Notes under the pieces: generated by a model
Database searches by the model: none
Told to the model about the DNA's origin: nothing
What the model saw: only the letters and a program-made list of their open reading frames with translations
Source: a virus
Virus record (IMG/VR): IMGVR_UViG_3300042535_000048
Location: 1-29,068 of that record
Direction: 5' to 3' (one strand)
Length of the DNA stretch: 29,068 nucleotides
Program-made: the position numbers and the translations under genes
Part shown: positions 1 through 28,166 of the stretch, one piece after another
Layout of the letters: every line of letters starts with the position of its first letter
Position numbering within the stretch: the stretch's first letter is position 1

Positions 1-840
1 ATGGTAATAGAATATAAGAAAGACAGAATTAACTCTAAAGGCAGGGGCCCTAGAGATTTACAACAGAGACACCAAAAACAAGAGTATCCATTACCTCAAC
101 AGGGGGTAGTGGATACTTTTTTAGTTGACGAGCTTAAATCTCATATAGCAGAACTTAAACAAGAACTTACTAAATCAAGAAGTGTTGTTCAAATTCCAGC
201 AGTTTTAGAGTCCACTACAGGTTACTCAGAGGCAGAGTTTGAAATAGAGCTTCTAAAGGCTGTGGACGAGTCCTCATCTAAATTACGTTCTGAATATGAA
301 TCCAAAATAAAACATTTAGAAGAAAAATTATCCCGTGCTAAAGAAGAAGTTCAAATAGTAAGTGAATCTTTTGAATCCTTAACTAAAGCACAAGAAAGGA
401 AGATAAAGGAACTTGAAGCTAACCCATCTAAACTTGATTCTGTAGTTATTGAAGTTGGAAAACTTCGTATAGAGAACGACTCCTTATCCAAAGATAATAT
501 TGCTATAGAAGCTCGTAATAAAGTTTTATTTTCCGAACAATTAACATTAAAACATGAACTTGAACTGTTAAAAACAAAAATTTCTGGCCAAGAGGAAGTA
601 ATAAAATCTAAAGATTTAATGATTGAAACTTTAAAAAACATCCAAGTAGTTTATAAGGGTGGAGAAGAGGTAATATCCACTGACCCTGAGAGGCCCCAAA
701 TGGAAACTACTTATGTAGATCCATCAGTGTCAAATAAAATGGAGTCATTTATTGAAGTTAAGGATGTTGAAACAGAGACTGAGAAGGTTAACATGAACGA
801 CAAGGTCTCGAAATTAAAAGATTTATTAGGGAGGAAGTAA
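1..840 (+). CDS. Coiled-coil protein next to an actin-like ATPase (function unknown)
   Basis: 279 residues if the ATG at the window edge is the true start; no upstream sequence is available to show a ribosome binding site, so the gene could begin earlier. Residues 1-40 are basic and Pro/Gln-rich. Residues about 45-215 are rich in Glu, Lys and Leu with heptad-like spacing and read as long coiled coils. A disordered acidic stretch (about 225-265) is followed by a short C-terminal basic/hydrophobic helix (VSKLKDLLGRK). The gene ends one base before the start of the actin-like gene, and the ribosome binding site of that gene (829-835) lies inside this one, so the two are probably co-translated. 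ParR-type adaptors of ParM filaments use a C-terminal helix to contact the filament; a similar role here is inference only. A coiled-coil virion or scaffold-like protein is the alternative. Confidence 0.75.
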   Translation: MVIEYKKDRINSKGRGPRDLQQRHQKQEYPLPQQGVVDTFLVDELKSHIAELKQELTKSRSVVQIPAVLESTTGYSEAEFEIELLKAVDESSSKLRSEYESKIKHLEEKLSRAKEEVQIVSESFESLTKAQERKIKELEANPSKLDSVVIEVGKLRIENDSLSKDNIAIEARNKVLFSEQLTLKHELELLKTKISGQEEVIKSKDLMIETLKNIQVVYKGGEEVISTDPERPQMETTYVDPSVSNKMESFIEVKDVETETEKVNMNDKVSKLKDLLGRK

Positions 841-841
841 T

Positions 842-1840
842 ATGAGTAATAAAGTATTAGGAGTCGATACTGGAACAAATTCACTTTGCGTCGGTTATTT
901 AGATGAAGATGGTTCTCCAAAATTTAAATTAGAACGTAATGCTTTTTTTCGTATCACCCCAAAATCAGACGTTAATAAACAAGCCATTAGGGGCTCATTG
1001 GAAAAAAGAGGTTGTAATTTTATTGTAGAAGGTGATGACCTGATTGTTGTAGGAGAGCAAAGTTTACATATTGCAATGGAGCGTAATCAAGTGTCAAGTC
1101 GCCCAATGGCGAAAGGTGTAATTTCACCAAAAGACAAAAGCAACCTTCCTATGCTTAAACTTCTTCTATCAAGTTTAATTGGTAAGGGGGATGGCGACAC
1201 CCCCTTAGTTTACGGAATCCCAGGATCGCCCGTAGACGGATCATTTAATGTTGAATACCATAACTCTATTCTGGAAATGTTTTTTAAAGAGCAGGGATTT
1301 GCACCTTCTCCTATAAATGAAGCTTTTGCTATTGCTTTAAGTGAGTTGATAGATCATAACCTCACAGGGATGAGCGTGTCGATGGGTGCAGGCATGTGTA
1401 ACGTTTCAATTATTCACCAAGGTGAGCCTTTGGCAGAGTTCGCAATTTTACGCTCTGGTGATGCTGTTGACCAGCTTGTAGCTGAGGCACTCGACATATC
1501 ACCCTCACTCGTTCAGCTTGAGAAAGAGGCTGGTATCGATTTATACAACCCTTCTAATAAGATAGTAGAAGCTGTGTCAGTTTATTATGCCTCAGTTCTT
1601 AATTACATTATGAAGACTATAGCCTATGAACTTAAACTTAGAGAAAAGACTCTTCCTATTTTTAGAGAGCCTATGCCTATAGTAGTATCTGGCGGGTTAA
1701 CTTTGGCTGAAGGGTTTGTTCGTATGTTTGAAGAAAAATTGGCAGGAGTTTCACTACCTATGAAAATAAAAGAAGTCAGAAGAGTATCTTCGCCTATGAC
1801 TTGTGTAGCAAATGGTGCCCTTTTGGCAGCTCAATTATAA
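842..1840 (+). CDS. Actin-like ATPase (ParM/MreB/FtsA superfamily)
   Basis: 332 residues. Actin-fold signatures occur in order: phosphate-1 loop (LGVDTGTNS, Asp9), a connect-1-like helix (INEAFAIALSE, Glu160), phosphate-2 loop (SMGAGMCNVS, about 180-189) and adenosine loop (IVVSGGLTLAEG, about 280-291). The C-terminal VANGALLAA is typical of the family. Such proteins bind ATP and polymerise to move or position DNA or other cargo; phage and prophage examples are known (for example AlpC). The Asp normally found at the start of the phosphate-2 loop is replaced by Ser/Met, which may affect hydrolysis. A strong AGGGAGGA site precedes the ATG. The upstream coiled-coil gene is a candidate partner. 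The superfamily call is firm; a filament-forming role is inference, and a chaperone-like or reactivase-like member is possible. Confidence 0.85.
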   Translation: MSNKVLGVDTGTNSLCVGYLDEDGSPKFKLERNAFFRITPKSDVNKQAIRGSLEKRGCNFIVEGDDLIVVGEQSLHIAMERNQVSSRPMAKGVISPKDKSNLPMLKLLLSSLIGKGDGDTPLVYGIPGSPVDGSFNVEYHNSILEMFFKEQGFAPSPINEAFAIALSELIDHNLTGMSVSMGAGMCNVSIIHQGEPLAEFAILRSGDAVDQLVAEALDISPSLVQLEKEAGIDLYNPSNKIVEAVSVYYASVLNYIMKTIAYELKLREKTLPIFREPMPIVVSGGLTLAEGFVRMFEEKLAGVSLPMKIKEVRRVSSPMTCVANGALLAAQL

Positions 1841-1851
1841 GGAGTTAATTT

Positions 1852-2304
1852 ATGAGACAAGTTAATAAAGCAGGTGTCGACTTAATAAAAGAGTTTGAAG
1901 GTTTCTTTTCGAAACCGTATTTGTGTCCAGCCAAAATCCCTACTATAGGTTTTGGAAGCACTCATTATGAAGATGGAACTAAAGTGACTCTTAACGATCC
2001 ACCAATTACTATGGAAAGGGCCGAACAACTTACTGCTCACGAACTTTCTACAATAGGGATAGCAGTAGAAAAATTAGTTAAAGTCCCTATTAATGATAAT
2101 CAATTTTCAGCATTATGTTCTTTTGCTTACAATGTCGGAACGGGAAACTTATCAAGTTCCACATTACTTAAGAAACTTAATGCTGTAGACTATCAGGGAG
2201 CCTCAGAGCAGTTCATAAGATGGAATAAGGCTGGAGGTAAGGTTCTTAATGGACTTACCCGTAGGCGCGAAGCAGAGCAAGATTTATTTAGTTTACAAGG
2301 ATAA
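1852..2304 (+). CDS. Endolysin: GH24 (T4/P22-type) lysozyme
   Basis: 150 residues, the usual size of a single-domain phage lysozyme that cleaves the MurNAc-GlcNAc bonds of peptidoglycan. The GH24 catalytic pattern Glu-8x-Asp/Cys-5x-Thr is present as Glu16, Cys25 and Thr31 (from IKEFEGF through PTIGFG), so this is the Cys variant. Further family blocks are QFSALCSFAYNVG, STLLKKLN and the C-terminal LNGLTRRREAEQDLF. There is no signal peptide or N-terminal anchor, so export would need a holin; the two-helix membrane protein directly downstream is the candidate. A GGAG site lies just upstream of the ATG. A virion-associated role is less likely given the free-standing single domain. Confidence 0.93.
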   Translation: MRQVNKAGVDLIKEFEGFFSKPYLCPAKIPTIGFGSTHYEDGTKVTLNDPPITMERAEQLTAHELSTIGIAVEKLVKVPINDNQFSALCSFAYNVGTGNLSSSTLLKKLNAVDYQGASEQFIRWNKAGGKVLNGLTRRREAEQDLFSLQG

Positions 2305-2358
2305 TCAACTACGCAGATGAGAAGCGGAGCGTTTAACTATTTAAAATAGGAGAACGTT

Positions 2359-2655
2359 ATGGACGAACAAGCAGAAGTCTTATCCGTTTTTGGTTTAAAA
2401 TTTTGGGATCTTTGGTTTCAAAAATGTTTTAGAAATGTAGCATCATTAAAGTGTCAATGGTTAGTGGCTTTATATATTCCAATAATTTGGGGAATGTTTA
2501 ACTATCCTCCTGGAGGTAAAGAGCCTTGGATTTCAGCAGTAGTAGGTTTAGGATTTTTAGGTGGTGGTTTTTTAACTTTGGCACTAGGAAGAATAGCTGC
2601 TAATACAAGTTTAACTAAGGATGATGATCCTGCAGTATTAAACACAGATAAATAA
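2359..2655 (+). CDS. Small two-helix membrane protein, candidate holin
   Basis: 98 residues. Hydrophobic segments at about 33-48 (QWLVALYIPIIWGMF) and 57-77 (Gly-rich, VVGLGFLGGGFLTLALG) flank a short loop containing PPGGKEP; the C-terminal 15 residues are polar and charged. Size, topology and position directly after the lysozyme fit a class II-like holin, which would make inner-membrane holes to release the lysozyme. No holin-specific motif is recognised, so the role is inferred from context. The ribosome binding site is AGGAG. An unrelated small phage membrane protein is the alternative. Confidence 0.6.
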   Translation: MDEQAEVLSVFGLKFWDLWFQKCFRNVASLKCQWLVALYIPIIWGMFNYPPGGKEPWISAVVGLGFLGGGFLTLALGRIAANTSLTKDDDPAVLNTDK

Positions 2656-2678
2656 TTAATTATTAAGGAGATTTTATT

Positions 2679-2891
2679 ATGGAGAGAGTATTAGGAAAAG
2701 TAAAATGGTTTTCACCAGAACGTGGCTACGGTTTCGTGACAGTAGATGGAAATGATACAATAGAGTATTTTATTCACTTTACTTCTATCAAGATGGAAGG
2801 ATACAAGACTTTAAAAGCTGATCAAAAGGTTTCCTTTGTGCTTGTAGAAAAAGAAAAAGGTATTCAAGCAACAGACGTTGAATTAGCTTAA
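2679..2891 (+). CDS. Cold-shock domain protein (CspA family)
   Basis: 70 residues, the standard length of a CspA-type protein: a five-stranded OB-fold that binds single-stranded RNA and DNA. The N-terminal GKVKWFSPERGYGFVTV carries the RNP1 motif (GYGFV, residues 16-20), and EYFIHFTSI carries RNP2 (about 29-37). The remaining strands (KVSFVLVEKEKG, QATDVEL) match the family. The basic and aromatic RNA-contact residues (Lys9, Trp10, Phe11, Tyr17, Phe19, Phe31, His33, Phe34) are present. It sits between the lysis genes and the histone-like gene with short spacers and AAGGAG upstream. A role in mRNA structure melting or regulation during infection is inferred from the family. Confidence 0.95.
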   Translation: MERVLGKVKWFSPERGYGFVTVDGNDTIEYFIHFTSIKMEGYKTLKADQKVSFVLVEKEKGIQATDVELA

Positions 2892-3957: not shown

Positions 3958-4383
3958 ATGCTTGTAGCTGAAGTAGTTATTAGAAAGAGTTACATAGAAG
4001 ATAAAATTAAGGACATAAAGAATTATCTTGCTATTGTAAAGGATTGTAATATTCCTGATGAAAAAAGAATTAATATTTATTCTGAAGGTATGAATTTTCT
4101 TTTTTTATTATATGATGATTTACAATCTTACAAATTATCATTAAGACGATCTAATGATAGTAACACGATACAAATAGGAAAAACAGTTTTAAAAGTATCC
4201 GAGGCTTTAGCTATTTTTAATACGTTTGAAAATAAAATAAAAGTTTTAGATTCAGCTATAGATAATTGCGATCCTGGTATTAATTTATTTGAACTTATTA
4301 AACAGCGTGATAAGACTTTAGAGGAGCAGCTAATGATGCTATCAAGTATTAAAAAAAGTGATTGGTCTACAAATGTTGAATAA
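3958..4383 (+). CDS. Hypothetical helical protein
   Basis: 141 residues, not recognised. The composition suggests an all-alpha fold, with charged helices at about 1-30, 40-65 and 75-140, and no cysteine motif, membrane segment or catalytic signature. The start is supported by GGAG at 3948-3951 inside the end of the preceding gene, with 6-base spacing to the ATG. Its end overlaps the start of the downstream HNH gene. Codon use is very AT-rich, like its neighbours from 3.2 to 5.3 kb. The size and acidic/basic mix would fit a small virion chaperone or regulator, but nothing in the sequence decides this. Confidence 0.65.
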   Translation: MLVAEVVIRKSYIEDKIKDIKNYLAIVKDCNIPDEKRINIYSEGMNFLFLLYDDLQSYKLSLRRSNDSNTIQIGKTVLKVSEALAIFNTFENKIKVLDSAIDNCDPGINLFELIKQRDKTLEEQLMMLSSIKKSDWSTNVE

Positions 4384-4672
4384 AAAAATAAAAAAGAAAG
4401 TTAAGAAAGTAATTAAACCTAAAAGGGTTGTTAATAAAAAAATAAAACCCTCTAAAGAAGAGTATGCTAAATTATTACAGCACCCTAAGTGGCAGAAGAA
4501 GAGATTAAAGATTATGGAACGTGATAAGTGGATGTGTAGAAAATGTAAGAATACAGAGTCAACTTTACATGTTCATCATCTAAGGTATACATCGTATTAT
4601 CCTTGGCAAGAAAAAGATGTTAATTTGGTTACATATTGTAATTCTTGTCATTTTAAAACACATAAGAATTAA
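4373..4672 (+). CDS. Small HNH endonuclease
   Basis: 99 residues from the ATG at 4373; an upstream in-frame GTG at 4358 would add five residues, and neither start has a clear ribosome binding site. The N-terminal 30 residues are extremely Lys-rich and suit DNA binding. The HNH core follows: LKIMERDKWMCRKC (first CxxC), LHVHHLRY (HH), Asn in VNLVTYC, and CNSCHFKTH (second CxxC and final His). These proteins use a beta-beta-alpha metal finger to nick or cut DNA, as homing enzymes or in phage packaging. It overlaps the preceding gene by 11 bases. It lies away from the terminase, so a packaging role is not implied; a selfish or accessory nuclease is more likely. Confidence 0.88.
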   Translation: MLNKKIKKKVKKVIKPKRVVNKKIKPSKEEYAKLLQHPKWQKKRLKIMERDKWMCRKCKNTESTLHVHHLRYTSYYPWQEKDVNLVTYCNSCHFKTHKN

Positions 4673-6686: not shown

Positions 6687-7019
6687 ATGGCTAATAGTGA
6701 ATTTGTAAAAGATATTTCAAAGTATGTTGCTGGCTCTGATATTGGGGCTAGGGAATTAAAGCCTGGGGAAAAAGGAAGAAGATACGAACCTGATGGTGGT
6801 ATAAAAAAACACAACCAGCGTATCCACCGCGAGTCTAAATTTGCTAATGATAATAAGAATCTTCCATTCCAATTTTCAAAGCCCGCCAAAAATGCTAAAA
6901 ATATGACTGTTAGATGTTTAAATTGTGGATATATAACATCAGCAAATAAAAACACTGTTGGTATTATATGTCCTGATTGTAAAATATATTCAGGTGTAGA
7001 GGAGGTAACTAATGGATAA
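6687..7019 (+). CDS. Small zinc-ribbon protein
   Basis: 110 residues. Residues 1-70 are polar, Lys/Arg-rich and probably unstructured. The C-terminal 35 residues form a zinc ribbon with Cys77, Cys80 (VRCLNCGYI) and Cys95, Cys98 (IICPDCKIY). Such ribbons bind nucleic acid or protein partners. Its stop overlaps the start of the next gene by 8 bases, and AGAGGAGG for that gene lies inside it, so the two are translationally coupled. This points to a shared role, possibly in DNA handling ahead of packaging. Not assigned to a named family. Confidence 0.7.
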   Translation: MANSEFVKDISKYVAGSDIGARELKPGEKGRRYEPDGGIKKHNQRIHRESKFANDNKNLPFQFSKPAKNAKNMTVRCLNCGYITSANKNTVGIICPDCKIYSGVEEVTNG

Positions 7020-7440
7020 AAGAAGAGGTCGCCCTCTAGGATATAAACTTAGTGACTTAAGTAGACAAGCTATTAGTGATTCTAAAAGAGGCCAAAGACA
7101 TTCCCAAGAGACACGTGATAAAATTTCAAAAACACTTTTACTTTATTTTAGAAAGTTAAATCCTATATCTGAAGAAATCACCAATAGATACTGTAGAACA
7201 AATGATGATAAGACTTGTGACTGGATGCAGAGTGTTAGAGAACAACTAGATAATTCTGAAGATGTAATGACAGATAGGCAAATGACTAATGTCAGAAAAA
7301 CTGAAATATCTTATGGCCAAAATATAGAGTATTTTTTTCATGAATTAACACCAGAAACTATACTAATACTAAAAGAGACTTGCATTGAGCAAGGTTTAGA
7401 TTTTAAACAGTTGTTTAAAACTTATGGAATGGATATATAA
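7012..7440 (+). CDS. DNA-binding protein with AT-hook and NUMOD3-like motifs
   Basis: 142 residues. The N-terminus DKRRGRPLGYKLSD contains an AT-hook core (RGRP with flanking basic residues). It is followed by two NUMOD3-like helices: LSRQAISDSKRGQ and HSQETRDKISKTL (to about residue 45). NUMOD3 modules usually provide sequence recognition in homing endonucleases, but no GIY-YIG or HNH catalytic motif is present in the rest, which is an all-helical domain of about 95 residues. It overlaps the probable small terminase by one base (TAATG at 7438-7442). The position directly ahead of the terminase genes suggests a packaging or transcription accessory; it could itself be the small terminase. Confidence 0.7.
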   Translation: MDKRRGRPLGYKLSDLSRQAISDSKRGQRHSQETRDKISKTLLLYFRKLNPISEEITNRYCRTNDDKTCDWMQSVREQLDNSEDVMTDRQMTNVRKTEISYGQNIEYFFHELTPETILILKETCIEQGLDFKQLFKTYGMDI

Positions 7441-11225: not shown

Positions 11226-13031
11226 ATGGCATTAAAAAAAATGAATTTAGAGAAAATTACAGCAGATTTAAAAAATAAATATCCAGATATTGGAATTAGA
11301 AGTATAGAGACTAGTGGTGACGGTAAAGCTACATTTTATTTAGATCCTACACAAAAGTCATTAGCGTTTTTGGGCAAAAAAGATGGAACCACGCCTCATT
11401 CAGAAGCAGCATCAACAATAAGGCGTGACGCTTTAGATAGAGGAACTTTAGATTTAATAAAGAAAGATCCTTTTACAGAACCTTATAATGAATCAATAAA
11501 AAGGGCCATTAAATATTACTATACTGAACCCTTGGTTGGGAGCACATTAAATCTTCTAGCTTCTCTATCTGCTAAAGGTTTTGAGAATGATGTAGATGAC
11601 CCAGATATTAAAAATTTCTATGATACTTGGGTATTTGATACTAATTTCGCAGAAGTAATAGAGTGGATATTTCTGGATTTTTTTAAAGTAGGGAATGTTT
11701 ATACTTACAAGGCTGTTCAAAAGTATGAACCCAGAGTTTCATATCTTTCTACGAATCCTGGAAAGAAAGTTAAGAAACCTGGGGCAGCTGCTGCTCAGGA
11801 ATTCGCGGCCAAAAAGAATGTATGGTCAAAAGGATTTTTACCAGTATCTTATACAGTCTTAAATCCAGAATTAGTTAAAGTAGATGGAAATTTACTCTTC
11901 GATAAAACATCCATAACATTAACCCCTCCAACAGAACTAAAAGACCTTCTTAAAAAATCAGGATCAGATCTAAGTGAAGATGAGAAGTTGTTAATAAAAT
12001 CTCTTCCTTCTGAATTAAAGAAAGCGGTTACTGATGGTAAAGATTTTAAATTAGAGTCCAATTTAGTAGGAAGGATTACATATAGAAAGCAACCTTACGA
12101 GCGCTATGCTAAACCAAGGTCTACTAGGATATTTGATAGTATAGAATATTATAAGTCGTTGAGGAATGCAGACTTGTCTACCTTAGATGGTATATCTAAC
12201 TACATTATAAAAGTTACTATAGGTAATGATGAGTACCCTGTAACTACACAAGACGAATTAGAAGCAGTATCTCAATTATTCAACACCCCAAGTAAATCTT
12301 TTTCTGTAGTTTGGAATCACACACTTCAAGTGGAGAAGATAGTAAGTCCAGAGATCGCTTCTATTTTGGGCAAAGAAAAGTATGCTCAAGTTAATGATGA
12401 TATTTCTGGAGGTTTGGGTATTAGTAGGGCTTTAATTGATGGTATGGGTAACGCTAATGCTGCTCAGATATCTCTTATGGTTAAGGGTGTGATGGAAGAG
12501 ATAAACTACGCTCGTAGACAAGTAGAACGTTGGATTTATAATGAATACAGGCAGATAGCTGAGGCGATGGGCTTCACGATGTTTCCTAAAATAAGATGGG
12601 ATGAGGGTGTATTGAAAGACTCCATCCTTTATATGAGTACATTATCACAATTGGTGGATAGACGCATGCTAAGTTATAATACAGCGCTGGAAAGTTTAGG
12701 TTTCGATTATCCTACAGAACTTCAAAACATGAAAACGGAATTACCTTTAGTTGAGGAAGGAATTTTTGGTCTTGCAGGGTCGCCATTTCAACAAGCTAAG
12801 GCAGGTCCTGGTGTTCAACCAGTACAAAAAGCTCCTACTGGAACTCCATCTAGTGGAAGACCGAAGGGGCAAGTTCCAAAAACTAAGCAACCAGTTACTG
12901 ATACAAATAAAAAAGTTAAGAACCCTCCTAAAGCGGAATCTTCAGAAAATTTTGCTTGGGCCAAAGAGATGACAGATGAGGAGTATGAAGTATTTATTTC
13001 AGAATTAGAAAGAGTTAGGGGTGAGGAGTAA
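11226..13031 (+). CDS. Portal protein
   Basis: 601 residues. The N-terminal half has the segments expected of a portal wing and stem: DPFTEPYNESIKRAIKYYYT, EPLVGSTLNLLASLSAKG, and the helix FAEVIEWIFLDFFKVGNVYTYK (in two parts, about 141-162). The C-terminal half has the long helix QISLMVKGVMEEINYARR, VERWIYNEYRQIAEAMGF, then LYMSTLSQLVDRRMLSYNTA with LESLGFD, and a disordered Pro/Gly/Lys-rich tail. Portals form the twelve-subunit DNA entry ring at one capsid vertex and bind the terminase. The gene order terminase, portal, protease, scaffold, capsid supports the call. A homing endonuclease gene follows with a 1-base overlap. Confidence 0.9.
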   Translation: MALKKMNLEKITADLKNKYPDIGIRSIETSGDGKATFYLDPTQKSLAFLGKKDGTTPHSEAASTIRRDALDRGTLDLIKKDPFTEPYNESIKRAIKYYYTEPLVGSTLNLLASLSAKGFENDVDDPDIKNFYDTWVFDTNFAEVIEWIFLDFFKVGNVYTYKAVQKYEPRVSYLSTNPGKKVKKPGAAAAQEFAAKKNVWSKGFLPVSYTVLNPELVKVDGNLLFDKTSITLTPPTELKDLLKKSGSDLSEDEKLLIKSLPSELKKAVTDGKDFKLESNLVGRITYRKQPYERYAKPRSTRIFDSIEYYKSLRNADLSTLDGISNYIIKVTIGNDEYPVTTQDELEAVSQLFNTPSKSFSVVWNHTLQVEKIVSPEIASILGKEKYAQVNDDISGGLGISRALIDGMGNANAAQISLMVKGVMEEINYARRQVERWIYNEYRQIAEAMGFTMFPKIRWDEGVLKDSILYMSTLSQLVDRRMLSYNTALESLGFDYPTELQNMKTELPLVEEGIFGLAGSPFQQAKAGPGVQPVQKAPTGTPSSGRPKGQVPKTKQPVTDTNKKVKNPPKAESSENFAWAKEMTDEEYEVFISELERVRGEE

Positions 13032-14140
13032 TGAAGAAATTAACATATGAATTTGTGAATTTGGAGTTTGAAAAGAAGGGATATAAACTTATTGAGTATA
13101 TAAATAATGATTCTCCTGTAACCTTTGAATGTACTATTTGTAAAAAAGTTAGAACTATATATTGGCCAAATTTTAAATATCTAGTTAAATGTCAATGTAT
13201 ATATAAAAAAGAAATGTTTGAATTTGTTAAAAATGAGTTTGCAAAAAAGGGCTATATTATTTTATCTACAGAGTATATAACTAATAGAATAAAACTTAGT
13301 TATAAATGCTCACATTGTAATAATATTAATAGTATGAATTGGAATAAATTTCAACAAAATCGTGAATGTCCTTATTGTAAGAAAAATGCTAAACCGAATA
13401 TTGAACAAGTAGCACAGTTATTTATTGATAGAAATCTGGAATTGTTATCAACTGAGTATATAAATAACCATACCAAATTAGATTATAAATGTAAAAAATG
13501 TGATACAATACATTCAGTAAAATGGAATAGCCTTAAAGATAGTGGAAGTGGCTGTCCTACATGCGCTATAGAAAAAAATTCAGGTTTAAATCACTATAAT
13601 TCTAAAGGCTGCGTTAGTAAATTAAATTTACCTTTATATGAAACATACTCCCATAAACTTGAGAAGTATGAACAAACTTATTTAGTACAACAAAATGGGT
13701 TAGATTTATTAGGCGTTAACTGTCTGTATTGTGGTAAAGTATTTGTTCCAACAACAACTATGGTAACAAATAGATTTAGGTCTATTAATTGTTTAATAGG
13801 TGAAAATAGATTTTATTGTTCTGAAGGTTGTAAGCATGCATGTCCTACTTACGGAAAAAAAGAATGGCCTGAAGGTTTCAAGCATGCCTCATCTAGAGAA
13901 ATGCAGCCCCAATTCAGAAAGATGGTTTTAGAACGTGATGACTGGACCTGCCAAAAATGCGGAGCCTCAAAAGACATTGATATTGAAATGGAGTTACATG
14001 CCCACCATATTGATCCAGTAGTAAATAACCCTATTGAGAGTTGTGACGTGGACAACGGAATCACTCTATGTAAAATATGTCATGAAGAGGTTCATCAAAT
14101 TCCAGGATGCAGTTATAAGGAATTGAGTTGTACTAATTAA
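13031..14140 (+). CDS. Free-standing HNH homing endonuclease with zinc-finger repeats
   Basis: 369 residues. The N-terminal half contains three related units of about 50-60 residues, each with an FxxxxGYKLIEYIN-like start and a CxxC finger (CTICKK, CSHCNN plus CPYCKK, CKKCDT plus CPTC), a pattern seen in DNA-recognition parts of homing endonucleases. A further finger (CLYCG) follows. The C-terminus is the nuclease: FRKMVLERDDWTCQKCG, ELHAHHIDP, Asn in VDNGITLC and CKICHEEVHQ, a complete HNH with its zinc CxxC pairs. The start codon shares one base with the portal stop. It separates portal from protease without disrupting either, as expected of an intronless homing gene. Base composition shifts sharply at about 13850. 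Confidence 0.9.
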   Translation: MKKLTYEFVNLEFEKKGYKLIEYINNDSPVTFECTICKKVRTIYWPNFKYLVKCQCIYKKEMFEFVKNEFAKKGYIILSTEYITNRIKLSYKCSHCNNINSMNWNKFQQNRECPYCKKNAKPNIEQVAQLFIDRNLELLSTEYINNHTKLDYKCKKCDTIHSVKWNSLKDSGSGCPTCAIEKNSGLNHYNSKGCVSKLNLPLYETYSHKLEKYEQTYLVQQNGLDLLGVNCLYCGKVFVPTTTMVTNRFRSINCLIGENRFYCSEGCKHACPTYGKKEWPEGFKHASSREMQPQFRKMVLERDDWTCQKCGASKDIDIEMELHAHHIDPVVNNPIESCDVDNGITLCKICHEEVHQIPGCSYKELSCTN

Positions 14141-21847: not shown

Positions 21848-24601
21848 ATGGCTAGTGTTGGTGGAAGAATAATAATGTCTTATGGCGATCCTCCTGGTGC
21901 GCCATCAACAGGAAAAGTAGCTTTTTATGTTAAAAATGATGGTTTGTTTTATTATAAACTAGACACAGGTTCAGAATTTCAAGTAACACAAAGTGGGGCT
22001 GTTGATCATGGGGGACTTTTAGGTTTAGGCGACGATGATCATATTCAATATTTAAATGAAGAGCGTGGCGATGCTAGATACCTTTCAACATCAAGCGGAG
22101 TACTTAATGGAAATAGTCATAATCACAGTGTAGGTGACGGTGGTCCTATTTATTTTGGAACCCTTAGTGGTACAGGAGACGTGGCAACATTAACTGCTTT
22201 AGGATCACAAGATCCAGGATCAGCAGGTGTCGACCTTATAGGTTATGGGCCAGATCATACCCTCAAAGAATGGTTAGATCAATCAATTAATAGTGGTGTT
22301 TTAAGTGGTTGTGTATTAACTAATGAGGGAGTTTTACACCTATCTTGGACATCAGGAACAATATACGACTCAGTTTCTAAAACTATACTTTTTATTTCAT
22401 CTGGCTCAGGAGATGTAGTAGATAATTCAATAAATTATTTAAAATGGACTGTAGCTAATTCCTTAGAATTATCGTTGCAAAAAGCAACGGGTGACGAAAT
22501 TTTTGTGGCCAGAATAGATGCATTTAATAATAAAATTCATATTATAAATCAAACCCCATACATTTCTAATAAAATACCAAGTATAGAAAAAGCCCTTTCA
22601 TCAATGTTCCCATTAATTATAACTGATGGTTTACTAGTGTATGAAAAATCAGGTTGGATGGTAACCTCCTCTTCAGGAACATATTTTGAAAATGGTTTTC
22701 ATGAGGTAGATTTACCTGAATTAGATAGCTCCGTTCCTTTAACTTTATATAGATTTTACCATACTAGTAATGTTTGGGATCAAGACACAAGTAGTGGTAT
22801 AGACCCTACAAAATGGGATAACGGTTCAGATAGAGTAGCAACTAATCCTAATAAGTATTATAAATCTATGTTTTCCTTAGGCCATGACAAAATACATTGG
22901 ATATACCCACAAGCAGAGTATGATTCAGAGGCTGCTGCTATTATAGGACCATTACCAGTTCAACCAGCTGGTATGGCTATGCATCCACAAAGTTCTGCTA
23001 TAGTTTTAAAAGGAGATGCTCCTAATTTTCCTTCCGTAGGTTCTGCTTCTTGGATAGATGCTCGTCCAATGAGGTTAGGAGCAGGAGTAACTTCAGTAAT
23101 AGACCATGGCAGCATTATAGGGTTATCTGATGATGATCATACACAATATTTAAATGAAGCCCGCGGGGACGAAAGGTATTATACTGAGTCTGAGGTGGAT
23201 ACTATATCGGGAACATTAAATAATGAAATAATGGAAAGTATGTCTTCTTTCTTAAAGTTACAGGATGTTCCTACATCTTACTCTGGTGAAGCATTAAAAC
23301 ATGTCATGGTAAATGCCGAAGAGACTGGGTTAAGTTTTATGGATTTTGAGCACGGCCACCAGATTGGTATAGATGGAGAGCCTACTATAACTACTGGCTC
23401 TGGGGCAAATGCTGGAAAATTTAGTGTAGCTTCGGTAGAGGTGTGGTTTTATATAGATAATAATAAATCTGGAGTTTTAAAACATAATATAGTCGAGAGT
23501 GGTTGGTTAGTCCCTGTCGATGACGTAACCGAATATATTTGTGCCGATAGAGATACAGATAGTTGGGTAATGCTAAGTAGTATGGATAGTATTGATTATA
23601 TAAGATACATTCCATATTTTACTTCTTTTAAACGTGCTGGTAGTAATAATTTTCATTTTCAAAAAATGATATTAAAGTTTCATGGAGAATTAGATATTAA
23701 TCACGAAAGATTATTAACAACGACTAGGTATTATAAGACAAACCAGGCTTTAACTGGCTTATCCGTAGATACTTCTTTAAATATAGTTTTGAATGGGGGC
23801 GTAGTTTATAACTCTAATTACAAATACGACTTACCATCAGTAACTGCCTCTACTAGACAATTTAAATGCACTAATATAAGCGGAACTTGGTCAATTACGT
23901 CTAATACTACACCAATATTAAATAATACTCAATATAATACAGTGTCAGGCCTTTCAGATCTTACAGATGGTTATTGGGGCTCTACTTATGTCTATAGAGG
24001 CGTAGAAGATCAGGATCATATGTATACAGTGCTTGGAGCATCCGAGTATCCATCTTTATCTTTAGCCCAAGCAGATAATAGTATACCTAATACTCCTGAA
24101 CTTATTTCTGGTCACGCCATATTTGTTGGGAGAGTAATAGTCCAAAAAAACACTACTTCTGGTATTATTTGTGAGTCTGCTTTTACTAATATTTTTTCAG
24201 CTTCCTCAGCAATATCAGACCATGGAGTGTTGGCCGGACTTTTAGATGATGATCATACACAATATTTAAACGAAGCCCGCGGGGATGAAAGGTATTATAC
24301 CGAGACCGAAATAAATATCATATCAGGAACTTTACAATCAAGTATAGATTTAAAACCTGATTCCTTTATAGATTTAGATACAGTCCCAAATACTTATTCT
24401 GGAGCTTCTGGTTATGTAGTAGTAGTAAAAGAAGGTGAAGATGGTTTAGAGTTTGTTTTACCAGATAGTTTGCATCATTCTGTTTATTATAGTAAAGATG
24501 ATATTAATACTATTTCTGGAGTATTACAGGGAAATATAAATTTAAAACCGGACACATTTTTGGATTTATCTGACACTCCTTTAAATTACTCTGGGGCATA
24601 A
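21848..24601 (+). CDS. Long tail fibre protein, upstream part of a frame broken by TAA
   Basis: 917 residues ending at an in-frame TAA (24599-24601). The N-terminus has SYGDPPGAPSTGKVAFYVKN and LFYYKLDTGSEFQV, a typical fibre start. Fibre repeats of the DHGxLxGLxDDDHTQY type occur near 22001, 23099 and 24217, with RYYTE-x-EVDTISG segments. The last residues DTPLNYSGA match the upstream copy VPNTYSGASGYVVV, where Ser-Gly-Tyr should follow; here TAA replaces that Ser. The same frame stays open for 664 more codons to 26593. AGGAG precedes the ATG. The protein would bind the host surface. Either the gene is truncated or split, or the stop is a sequencing error; see the two following entries. Confidence 0.85.
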   Translation: MASVGGRIIMSYGDPPGAPSTGKVAFYVKNDGLFYYKLDTGSEFQVTQSGAVDHGGLLGLGDDDHIQYLNEERGDARYLSTSSGVLNGNSHNHSVGDGGPIYFGTLSGTGDVATLTALGSQDPGSAGVDLIGYGPDHTLKEWLDQSINSGVLSGCVLTNEGVLHLSWTSGTIYDSVSKTILFISSGSGDVVDNSINYLKWTVANSLELSLQKATGDEIFVARIDAFNNKIHIINQTPYISNKIPSIEKALSSMFPLIITDGLLVYEKSGWMVTSSSGTYFENGFHEVDLPELDSSVPLTLYRFYHTSNVWDQDTSSGIDPTKWDNGSDRVATNPNKYYKSMFSLGHDKIHWIYPQAEYDSEAAAIIGPLPVQPAGMAMHPQSSAIVLKGDAPNFPSVGSASWIDARPMRLGAGVTSVIDHGSIIGLSDDDHTQYLNEARGDERYYTESEVDTISGTLNNEIMESMSSFLKLQDVPTSYSGEALKHVMVNAEETGLSFMDFEHGHQIGIDGEPTITTGSGANAGKFSVASVEVWFYIDNNKSGVLKHNIVESGWLVPVDDVTEYICADRDTDSWVMLSSMDSIDYIRYIPYFTSFKRAGSNNFHFQKMILKFHGELDINHERLLTTTRYYKTNQALTGLSVDTSLNIVLNGGVVYNSNYKYDLPSVTASTRQFKCTNISGTWSITSNTTPILNNTQYNTVSGLSDLTDGYWGSTYVYRGVEDQDHMYTVLGASEYPSLSLAQADNSIPNTPELISGHAIFVGRVIVQKNTTSGIICESAFTNIFSASSAISDHGVLAGLLDDDHTQYLNEARGDERYYTETEINIISGTLQSSIDLKPDSFIDLDTVPNTYSGASGYVVVVKEGEDGLEFVLPDSLHHSVYYSKDDINTISGVLQGNINLKPDTFLDLSDTPLNYSGA
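23129..23183 (+). repeat. Direct repeat copy A inside the fibre gene
   Basis: A 55-base block that recurs at 24245-24299 with only two silent-type changes. It encodes DDDHTQYLNEARGDERYY plus the first bases of the next codon. The DNA-level identity is higher than the protein repeat requires and suggests recent duplication or gene conversion. Confidence 0.9.
24245..24299 (+). repeat. Direct repeat copy B inside the fibre gene
   Basis: Second copy of the 55-base block at 23129-23183 (53 of 55 bases equal), 1116 bases downstream and in the same reading frame. Recombination between copies would delete 1116 bases (372 codons) without shifting the frame. Confidence 0.9.
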
Positions 24602-25069
24602 GGTTATGTTTTAGCAATTAATGCCTCTGGAACTGGCATAGATTTTTATTCCTCACAAGAAATACATAGTGCTACTTTTTATACCAAAACTGAATTAACT
24701 ACAAGCGGGGTTTTAGATACCAGGTATTACACTGAAACAGAAGTAGATACTATATCAGGTTCAATTTATAATTCAATTCCTACAGCACTATCTCAACTAT
24801 CAGAAGATACTACACATAGAGTAGTAACTGATTCTGAAAAGAGTATCTGGTCAGGAAAACAGGATGTAATAGAAGATTATCCTTACATTAGACAATCCGA
24901 TTTAGATAGAAACTGTTCCGGCCTTGGTGGAACCGCTTCAACATCTAGTCTAATTACAACTAATTCAGGAAATACTACCTTTAGTGTTGGTAGTGGTTTT
25001 GGTTATGTTAATAATCATACTGGAGTTCCTGGAACATTTGTATATGTAACTTTTTCCGGAGCCCAAAAT
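24602..25069 (+). other. In-frame coding stretch after the TAA, with no start codon
   Basis: These 156 codons are open in the frame of the flanking fibre segments and contain no ATG, GTG or TTG in frame. They translate as fibre sequence: GYVLAINASGTGIDFYSS continues the DTP-motif, followed by DTRYYTETEVDTISGS, then RVVTDSEKSIWSGKQDVI, and a Gly/Ser-rich beta region leading into the downstream segment. So this is not an intergenic gap but a fibre region that would go untranslated if the TAA is real and no read-through occurs. Confidence 0.85.
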
Positions 25070-26593
25070 GTGGCACATTTAGGAGATGGAAATACTCACA
25101 TTGCTGTTGATATTAATGGTGATGTTGTAACATCCACTTCAGAACCAATAATGGCAAGTCATATATATTTAGGACATATTTATGTTATAAATAATTATAT
25201 TGTGGAGGTATTTAATGTTCCTGAATGGGCAGGTCATTTTAGTGGAAGAGTAAATGGATTTGTTTCACATGGAATAAAAACAATAGTTTCTGCTGGTTTA
25301 GCTGTAAGTGAGCAGGTCACACCTTTAAAATTAAATATATCTTCTGGTAAGTTATATGTTAGACTTTCCGAGGTAAATGTATCTTCACCAATAACATCGT
25401 TTACAAAGATGTATGAAAATGATAATGTTTGGTATACAGATTCAAACAATATAGACTATGTTAATACAACACAGTGGAATAATGTAGCATCAGGTTTGGT
25501 TACTACTACTTCAGGTTATTGGAAAAAAGATCTTGTTTTAATTACCCCATCAAAAAATGTATATTATATTTTTGGTCAAGGAGAGTTTGCTTCAGAAGAT
25601 TTGGCAATTGCTGGGCCTATACCTATAGTTCCTGATGCAATCAGGCAAGATAGTGCCTACTTAGCACTTATAGTAAGCAGGAAAGACGATACTTCTATAG
25701 ACAACAGAATACACATTATATCTCCTAATTTAGATAGAATATTTGGTTATGGCACTAGTGGTGGCGGAACCGTAGTTGATCACGGAACTTTAATTGGTTT
25801 GGGTGATGACGATCATACACAATACTTTAATACTGAAAGAGGCGATGCAAGATATTTTACCGAGACTGAGCTAACTAATGGAGAGTTAGACTCCAGATAC
25901 TATACTGAAACGGAATTAAATTCAGGTCAGTTGGATTCAAGATATTTTACAGAGTCTGAATTAACCACCAGTGGTTCTTTAGATTCTAGGTATTACACTG
26001 AGACAGAGGTTAATACAATTTCCGGCGCAATAAATGCTAAAATAATTACTGCTCATAATGGACTAACTGGTTTATCAGATGATGATCATAACCAATATCT
26101 ATTAACTTCAGGAACAAGAAATTTAACAGGTATACAATCATATAGTTCTGATAATAGTTTTACAACAGCAAGACAGATTCCAGACAAAGGTTACGTAGAT
26201 TCTGTAACTATATTTGGCCAAAATTATTCTCAAAATTCAAGTGAAGGTCAATCCTCTACAACAAGTAATACATATCAAAATAAACTAACATTAACTACAG
26301 CTTCTCTACCATCAGGAAATTATAGAATAAATTGGTATTATGAGTGGACACATTCTTCTATTAGTGATTTTTTTGACGCTCAGGTTCAAGTCAACAATGT
26401 AACTACTATTATGAATCATATACAAGAACCAAAACAGAGTGGAACATCTAACTGGGTATCTTCTTCTGGGTTTTATTATTATTCAGGTATAAGTGGTGTA
26501 TTAACAATAGATTTAGATTATAGGACAAGTACAGCAACAAGTACAACATCCTACATAAGAAGAGCAAGATTAGAACTTTGGAGGATATCTTAA
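25070..26593 (+). CDS. Tail fibre, downstream C-terminal part (separated by the TAA)
   Basis: 508 codons including the stop, from a GTG at 25070 preceded by CCGGAG at 8-base spacing; this is the only usual start in frame after the TAA, but it lies inside what looks like a beta domain (AQNVAHLGDGNTHIAVDING), so it may be fortuitous. The part has DHGTLIGLGDDDHTQY near 25777, four RYxTExEL units at 25841-26011 and GLSDDDHNQYLLTSGTR. A C-terminal beta-sandwich-like tip follows (YRINWYYEWTHSSISDFFDA, then a terminal RARLELWRIS). It is most simply the distal, host-binding end of the preceding fibre. With the upstream part and the bridge it makes a 1581-codon frame with one stop. Confidence 0.75.
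   Translation: MAHLGDGNTHIAVDINGDVVTSTSEPIMASHIYLGHIYVINNYIVEVFNVPEWAGHFSGRVNGFVSHGIKTIVSAGLAVSEQVTPLKLNISSGKLYVRLSEVNVSSPITSFTKMYENDNVWYTDSNNIDYVNTTQWNNVASGLVTTTSGYWKKDLVLITPSKNVYYIFGQGEFASEDLAIAGPIPIVPDAIRQDSAYLALIVSRKDDTSIDNRIHIISPNLDRIFGYGTSGGGTVVDHGTLIGLGDDDHTQYFNTERGDARYFTETELTNGELDSRYYTETELNSGQLDSRYFTESELTTSGSLDSRYYTETEVNTISGAINAKIITAHNGLTGLSDDDHNQYLLTSGTRNLTGIQSYSSDNSFTTARQIPDKGYVDSVTIFGQNYSQNSSEGQSSTTSNTYQNKLTLTTASLPSGNYRINWYYEWTHSSISDFFDAQVQVNNVTTIMNHIQEPKQSGTSNWVSSSGFYYYSGISGVLTIDLDYRTSTATSTTSYIRRARLELWRIS
25841..26011 (+). repeat. Tandem RYxTE units in the fibre
   Basis: Four consecutive units of 12-15 codons: DARYFTETELTNGEL, DSRYYTETELNSGQL, DSRYFTESELTTSGSL and DSRYYTETEV. They vary at the DNA level, unlike the 55-base direct repeat. 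Tandem copies of this motif are typical of trimeric fibre shafts. Confidence 0.85.
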
Positions 26594-27602: not shown

Positions 27603-28166
27603 ATGAATGTCTTATATAAGATTAAATCTGTAATTATTAGTTGGTTTGCTGATATAAGAATATACATTGGTGGTTTTATTTTATTCGGTAGTTCGGCATA
27701 TGAAATAAAGGGCGACCATATGCGTGAGATTTTAGATACTTTAGAGCCTGGAGATATTCTATTAAGGCGTTACAGTCATTATATTGGTAGTAGATTGGTT
27801 CCTGGGTATTGGTCACATGTAGCTTTATATGTTGGGGATGGTGAGGTTATACATATGCTCGGTAACGGTATAGCTAAAGAAGATATTTTAACTTTTATGA
27901 GATGTGATGATATAGCAATTTTGCGCGGGGAAGAAAAAGATAGAGCATATAATGCTATCATAGGAGCAAATAATTATTATAACCTCTCTATAAAGTATGA
28001 TTATAGTTTTAATTTTAAAGATAAATCAAAAATGAGTTGCACTGAATTACTTTATGATATTTACGCTGAACCAGAAATAACTAAAAGAATATCAGATAAA
28101 TATATCTGCCCAGATGACTTCCTAAATTCCATATTTAAAGTAATATGGACAAAAGGCGAAAAATAA
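27603..28166 (+). CDS. YiiX/YebB-type permuted NlpC/P60 hydrolase
   Basis: 187 residues. The papain-like permuted fold is shown by EPGDILLRR (about 48-56), GYWSHVALYVGDGEVIHMLG (68-87, His72 catalytic, Glu81 probable third residue) and KMSCTELLYDIYAE (143-156, Cys146 nucleophile). The His-before-Cys order is that of the permuted families. An N-terminal hydrophobic or amphipathic stretch (about 8-29) may touch membrane. Family members cleave amide or thioester bonds in peptides or lipids; the substrate is not readable. Flanked by virion genes, it may act on the cell envelope at entry or exit. AAGGAG lies upstream of the ATG. All catalytic residues appear intact. Confidence 0.8.
   Translation: MNVLYKIKSVIISWFADIRIYIGGFILFGSSAYEIKGDHMREILDTLEPGDILLRRYSHYIGSRLVPGYWSHVALYVGDGEVIHMLGNGIAKEDILTFMRCDDIAILRGEEKDRAYNAIIGANNYYNLSIKYDYSFNFKDKSKMSCTELLYDIYAEPEITKRISDKYICPDDFLNSIFKVIWTKGEK

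Follow-up and report, generated by a model that had tools for sequence, protein, structure and literature searches.

Volactin of the haloarchaeon Haloferax volcanii (VolA, HVO_2015) forms dynamic filaments in vivo, has a role in cell shape and contacts the haloarchaeal membrane by its filament tips (Schiller et al., PMC10869688). Crenactin of Pyrobaculum is bound by arcadin-2, which is encoded in the same gene cluster and uses a conserved helix at its C-terminus, preceded by a variable linker; both for arcadin-2 on crenactin and for ParR on ParM, the C-terminal part of the partner enters the groove between actin subdomains IA and IIA (PMC5173319). For ParM/ParR of plasmid R1, the passages cited in PMC5173319 describe an adaptor that docks in a hydrophobic groove of the actin-like protein. 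Corynebacterium prophage CGP3 also encodes an actin-like protein, AlpC, with a co-transcribed adaptor, AlpA; AlpA binds alpS DNA sites in the promoter, and AlpC serves phage DNA transport and replication (PMC5539076).

The window analyzed here is an entire virus record of 29,068 bases. Its first gene (1 – 840, + strand, 279 aa) is an open frame for a coiled-coil protein, called the adaptor below, and ends in the stop codon TAA (838 – 840). A single base (T841) separates this stop from the ATG at 842 of an actin-like ATPase gene (842 – 1840, + strand, 332 aa), whose ribosome binding site, the purine-rich GGGAGGAAG (829 – 837, + strand), lies within the last adaptor codons and is followed by TAA T ATG. 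An earlier reading of the window from its letters alone (the sequence-only reading) had described the same layout, a coiled-coil gene ending one base before an actin-like gene with the ribosome binding site inside it, and these coordinates confirmed it. Although the adaptor frame opens with the first base of the record, relatives begin with the same N-terminal YKK/YNK...GPRDxQ, so that the frame probably contains the whole gene. An endolysin gene (phage lysozyme; 1852 – 2304, + strand; Pfam PF00959, 8.3e-45) follows directly in the same operon and was placed outside the filament pair proper. Actins at least 46% identical to the window actin were grouped as a clade (n = 42), which formed one supported branch of the tree (SH-aLRT 100). 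The usual gene order in this clade was ClpP-like, coiled coil and actin, often followed by endolysin-type and cold-shock genes; an endolysin- or peptidase-like gene lay downstream of actin in part of the clade. The gap between partner and actin was 1 to 31 nt wherever no gene intervened.

Several other features of the record were noted. Homing-endonuclease-like genes of HNH and NUMOD3 type lie at 4358 – 4672, 7012 – 7440 and 13031 – 14140, the last of which (CapR + HNH) comes after the portal gene, and L046, L051, L066 and L076 have similar-looking genes next to the partner and actin genes or separating them. A repetitive fibre-like gene (21848 – 26593) runs in a single frame that is interrupted once, by a TAA at 24599 – 24601 (GGGGCATAAGGT), where a neighboring repeat has Ser (GASGYV vs GA*GYV); this TAA may be a nonsense mutation, an assembly error or a recoding site. 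A permuted papain-like amidase (Peptidase_C92, 5e-12) is encoded downstream of the fibre-like genes (27603 – 28166).

The window actin was assigned to the Pfam family Volactin (PF25216; 6.4e-57, 193.9 bits against a cut-off of 35), which also contains VolA; haloarchaeal members are about 31 – 34% identical. The Volactin profile was matched by 12/12 aligned relatives (alignment A2), and matches of the window actin to the Salactin and MreB profiles stayed below threshold. A 12-member actin profile searched against the PDB matched MamK, MreB, FtsA and BeeR, with FtsA, PilM and EutJ among the weaker matches. The modeled fold of a relative with 54% identity matched MamK, MreB and actin folds, MamK best, and the nearest solved folds by Foldseek were MamK, MreB and BeeR filaments (5ljv, E 3e-13; 8r2n, E 3e-12). 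These three have the nearest folds but belong to different families, and no equivalent tail-bearing adaptor was identified for them in this comparison. The sequence-only reading had named phosphate-1, connect-1 and adenosine signatures in the ATPase; the signatures located here all have invariant columns over the 12 relatives: the phosphate-1 motif GVDTGT (aa 7 – 12; 860 – 877, + strand; G7, D9, G11 and T12 invariant), the phosphate-2 motif SMGAGMCN (aa 180 – 187; 1379 – 1402, + strand; S180, G182, G184 and N187 invariant) and the adenosine motif VVSGGLTLAEGF (aa 281 – 292; 1682 – 1717, + strand; G284, G285 and G291 invariant). E160 of an INEAFA signature was likewise invariant. The actins of L035 (2112 – 4202) and L036 (2112 – 4202) are split at the phosphate-2 motif by a large intein-like insert (SC...HNCGAGMTN). 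Inteins usually occupy conserved active sites, and the position of this insert therefore suggests a working volactin-like ATPase.

Profile scans recovered 515 volactin relatives in viral contigs (IMG/VR) and 326 in genome contigs, and loci were collected around the best 80 of each set. Among 50,697 phage records, a volactin-like actin was found in two only, both huge phages without annotation (485 and 595 kb), and BFVD gave one match at E ≤0.001. No phage volactin member and no link between volactin and phages was found in the literature searched. Volactin-like genes with different neighbors also occur in bacterial MAGs (L133, L138, L180, L193 and L204, from Nitrospirota, Desulfobulbaceae and others), beside which no tail-type partner was noticed; these are possibly a separate cellular bacterial branch. 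The actins of L063 (4812 – 5984) and L064 (4818 – 5984) carry an N-terminal extension of ~57 aa, which in L064 includes NKTSGPQDR and RPKIEDP, partner-like motifs; the extension looks as if a shortened partner copy had been fused to actin.

The adaptor has no transmembrane segment, and matched no Pfam family over the cut-off, no PHROG significantly and not the profile of DUF7139 (PF23600), the multi-TM family to which the partner of H. volcanii volactin belongs. In that archaeon, as here, the gene upstream of the actin encodes a protein with a tail of similar type; there, however, the actin is a cellular protein and the partner spans the membrane, whereas here the actin gene is a phage gene and its partner a coiled coil. 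Four parts of the adaptor were delimited (all + strand). An N-terminal GPRDLQ motif (46 – 63), a possible cargo contact, is present as GPRDxQ or a close variant in 25/29 unique clade partners (regex). It is followed by a coiled-coil rod of variable length (118 – 645, approximate boundaries), drawn from the variation in partner length and from helix 61 – 130 of the L064 partner. Further on come a conserved RP...(Y/F/I)VDP...I segment (694 – 753; P232, D240, P241 and I251 invariant in alignment A3) and the proposed actin-binding tail, MNDKVSKLKDLLGRK (793 – 837; K271, L272, K273 and G277 invariant in A3). Tail-bearing clade partners (n = 36) ranged from 185 to 450 aa, and what they kept was the N-terminal GPRDxQ, the [VI]DP segment and the last ~12 residues (V.KLK.L.G).

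A single-sequence search with the window coiled coil found no relative in viral contigs; relatives were recovered through terminase and actin searches instead. The terminase search gave 26 viral loci, and 18 terminase-related viral records were searched over their whole length. Actin was present in 6 of these 18 and the coiled-coil profile in 5 of the 6, in each case directly upstream of actin, while the coiled coil was absent from all 12 records that lack actin (0 of 18 with coiled coil only). The sequence-only reading had named independent occurrence of the two genes as an observation that would speak against a pair, and this check did not refute the pairing. In the sixth actin-bearing record, L046, the partner is a small protein of TM type, encoded one gene farther upstream. 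Other viral partners, in T4-like and other phages, are N-terminal single-TM proteins of about 100 – 150 aa; Lys/Arg are mostly more frequent on their C-side, which by the positive-inside rule makes a cytosolic tail likely. Soluble partners of different build were found in L086, L089, L091 and L092. In a viral subgroup (L118, L120 and L124), the product of the upstream gene carries (P/T)xIETSFG(D/N)xRIG toward its end in place of the KLKxL tail and is a possible alternative adaptor.

The tail was then counted against background. The motif is short, was first spotted by inspecting these loci and was counted on the same collections, against background genes and shuffles: it occurred within three genes upstream of actin in 28/30 clade representatives vs 28/439 background triples (p 3e-27), and in 22/42 representatives from other viruses vs 18/346 (p 5e-14). 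In the nearest upstream gene, the tail regex fitted 25/29 clade members and 15/42 other viruses, with 2.9 expected from composition-matched shuffles in either set. Alignment on the KLK anchor gave high information at positions beyond the search pattern (2.7 bits at -3, 2.8 at +5 and 3.1 at +6). About half of the distant viral representatives had no regex match in the three upstream genes, several of them being near-misses. Scoring by a PSSM restricted to the single nearest gene gave a weak result at distant loci, because other genes can lie in between and because ORFs, called as longest frames, are unreliable in GC-rich archaea. The sequence-only reading had also described a short amphipathic basic C-terminal helix. 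The window tail, which contains KLKDLLG, is indeed basic (net charge +3) and is helical in models of a relative, but its amphipathy is weak by itself: the hydrophobic moment (0.45) was reached by 13% of composition shuffles and is not unusual. On the alignments, conservation rather than amphipathy is the real evidence for the tail.

The pair was modeled with AlphaFold2 (AF2) in a relative, L064, in which partner and actin were joined into one chain by reading the in-frame TAG stop as Gly, a computational device that provides a long linker. Rows L019 and L020, which come from public phage records, were left out of the alignment, and very-low-identity partner-only rows that looked misaligned were dropped. 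As control, the L064 partner was modeled by itself from the identical 13 partner rows; the joint alignment had more actin rows. In the joint chain, pLDDT was mostly >90 for actin and about 40 for the linkers, and partner residues 161 – 190 reached 88 – 89, with strands at 168 – 170 and 174 – 177 and a helix at 183 – 193. In the partner alone, residues 161 – 180 stayed at 52 – 53 and 181 – 190 at 74, and no strands were formed. The VDP segment before the tail was ordered only when actin was present, and the remainder of the partner, including helix 61 – 130 (pLDDT mostly 83 – 96), changed little. The comparison is one of per-residue confidence and gives no site; read from pLDDT and secondary structure, it suggests that the last ~45 residues of the partner fold upon docking on actin. 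Together, the conserved tail, the co-occurrence and the controlled AF2 comparison upheld the idea that the actin-like ATPase has a coiled-coil partner of its own, which structure prediction of the pair had been proposed to probe, and make it very likely that the tail binds actin.

The archaeal relatives were surveyed for comparison. By profile, the haloarchaeal protein upstream of volactin is DUF7139, a multi-TM membrane protein. Of the best 80 (of 326) genome loci, 58 contain a homolog, in most cases encoded by the gene just before volactin; the pair nearly abuts or overlaps in Archaeoglobaceae. No mention of DUF7139 was found in the literature searched. Three segments of haloarchaeal DUF7139 resemble the motif: VDxxVxxLxxLxGG, DDQxxxLxELRxQ and the C-terminal end (for example VVDRIRGLFS). 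Of 39 haloarchaeal tails, 20 fitted the regex vs 1.5 expected from shuffles, a looser match than in phages; those of Archaeoglobaceae did not fit. In 17 genomes picked for carrying volactin, 1 – 5 DUF7139 copies were present per genome, and copies away from any actin gene had other C-termini and lacked the tail (0/6). Five of these six actin-unlinked haloarchaeal paralogs (L208 – L213) end in a conserved Cys-rich stretch (YCGNC..F.YV...PYC..H...DMDACEEW). The contact of volactin filaments with the membrane by their tips fits a membrane-anchored, tip-binding adaptor.

From these data we favor, at a probability of roughly 0.6, a phage cytoskeletal unit in which a volactin-family actin is served by a dedicated coiled-coil adaptor that docks by its C-terminal tail and links the filament to cargo. 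The actin (842 – 1840) would polymerize with ATP. The last ~45 residues of the adaptor, made up of the VDP segment and the C-terminal KLKxLLG helix, are predicted to dock on the actin, probably in the same IA/IIA groove as ParR and arcadin-2. A coiled-coil dimer or oligomer could offer several tails at the filament end, which the adaptor would then nucleate, cap or tether, and the variable rod with its N-terminal GPRDxQ motif may connect the filament to cargo. A late role is suggested by the position of the pair among ClpP-like, endolysin and structural genes; our guess from gene order is that the unit may place assembling particles or a phage compartment, or reshape the cell before lysis.

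A different use of the same contact, in which the adaptor is chiefly a depolymerizer or monomer sequesterer whose tail fills the groove meant for the next subunit while the coiled coil merely oligomerizes the tail, is rather unlikely. It draws on arcadin-2, which has a similar architecture (a conserved C-terminal helix after a variable part) and depolymerizes crenactin (Kd 31 nM; PMC5173319), and on free AlpA, which likewise disassembles AlpC (PMC5539076). The likeness to arcadin-2 is one of architecture, crenactin belonging to a different actin family; it nevertheless qualifies the statement of the sequence-only reading that no such pair was known, since arcadin-2 binds crenactin by its conserved C-terminal helix (PMC5173319). 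The membrane anchoring of the tail in relatives and the several motif-like helices of haloarchaeal DUF7139 are better suited to tethering or nucleation.

DNA positioning of the ParMRC or AlpAC type, with the coiled coil bound to phage centromere DNA and the tail to actin, is highly improbable. An actin-like ATPase with an adaptor ending in a C-terminal helix would be the expected equipment, and AlpC/AlpA of prophage CGP3 works in this way (PMC5539076). The kinship with ParM/AlpC proposed in the sequence-only reading was nevertheless not borne out by the Volactin assignment: ParM was absent from the Pfam matches of the window actin, from the PDB profile matches and from the top 50 fold matches, the closest solved relatives being MamK and MreB. 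The adaptor has no DNA-binding domain such as the ribbon-helix-helix of ParR (Pfam; none in the L064 partner either), and no array of centromere- or alpS-type repeats was found in window 1 – 2700, the promoter region lying outside the window. In relatives there is almost no intergenic space upstream of the partner (ClpP-like-to-partner gap mostly -1 to 21 nt), and some partners are membrane-anchored. On these sequence tests, with ParM match, DNA-binding domain and repeat array all absent, the pair is not a ParMRC system, and the proposed role in positioning DNA is unsupported. It also differs from AlpC/AlpA in adjoining endolysin and structural genes.

We consider it very unlikely that the actin forms no filament and instead serves lysis or virion assembly as an ATP switch or assembly factor, as PilM or FtsA can be, scaffolded by the coiled coil. 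The setting of the genes between ClpP-like, endolysin and structural genes and the presence of FtsA, PilM and EutJ among the weaker profile matches would agree with such a role, but MamK, MreB and BeeR, its best matches of solved structure, are filament formers, as is volactin in vivo (PMC10869688). That the two genes are chance or operon neighbors whose products never meet is extremely improbable given the conserved order, the conserved tail, the same tail type in unrelated partners, its absence from unlinked DUF7139 copies and the AF2 ordering seen only with actin.

The phage cytoskeletal unit with a docking adaptor may be one case of a wider arrangement. Because membrane-anchored proteins of relatives carry the same tail type, the tail would be the fixed part and the anchor interchangeable. 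We give about even odds to a single adaptor principle across archaeal and bacterial-virus volactins, in which a short C-terminal actin-binding tail (V.KLKxL.G type) is borne on interchangeable anchors; within that proposal, and held no more firmly, the anchors would be phage coiled-coil rods, phage single-TM proteins and haloarchaeal DUF7139 with up to three motif-like helices. Judging by the volactin relatives in viral contigs, phages have numerous actins distinct from ParM/AlpC that were apparently not described before, and these come with a defined partner and tail. DUF7139 is a candidate membrane tether of volactin filaments in haloarchaea; if the shared principle is true, it would be the missing tip anchor of these filaments, and the phage system would be a virus-borne version of it. 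The shared tail on differently built neighbors points to an unrecognized, widespread mode of actin-filament attachment.
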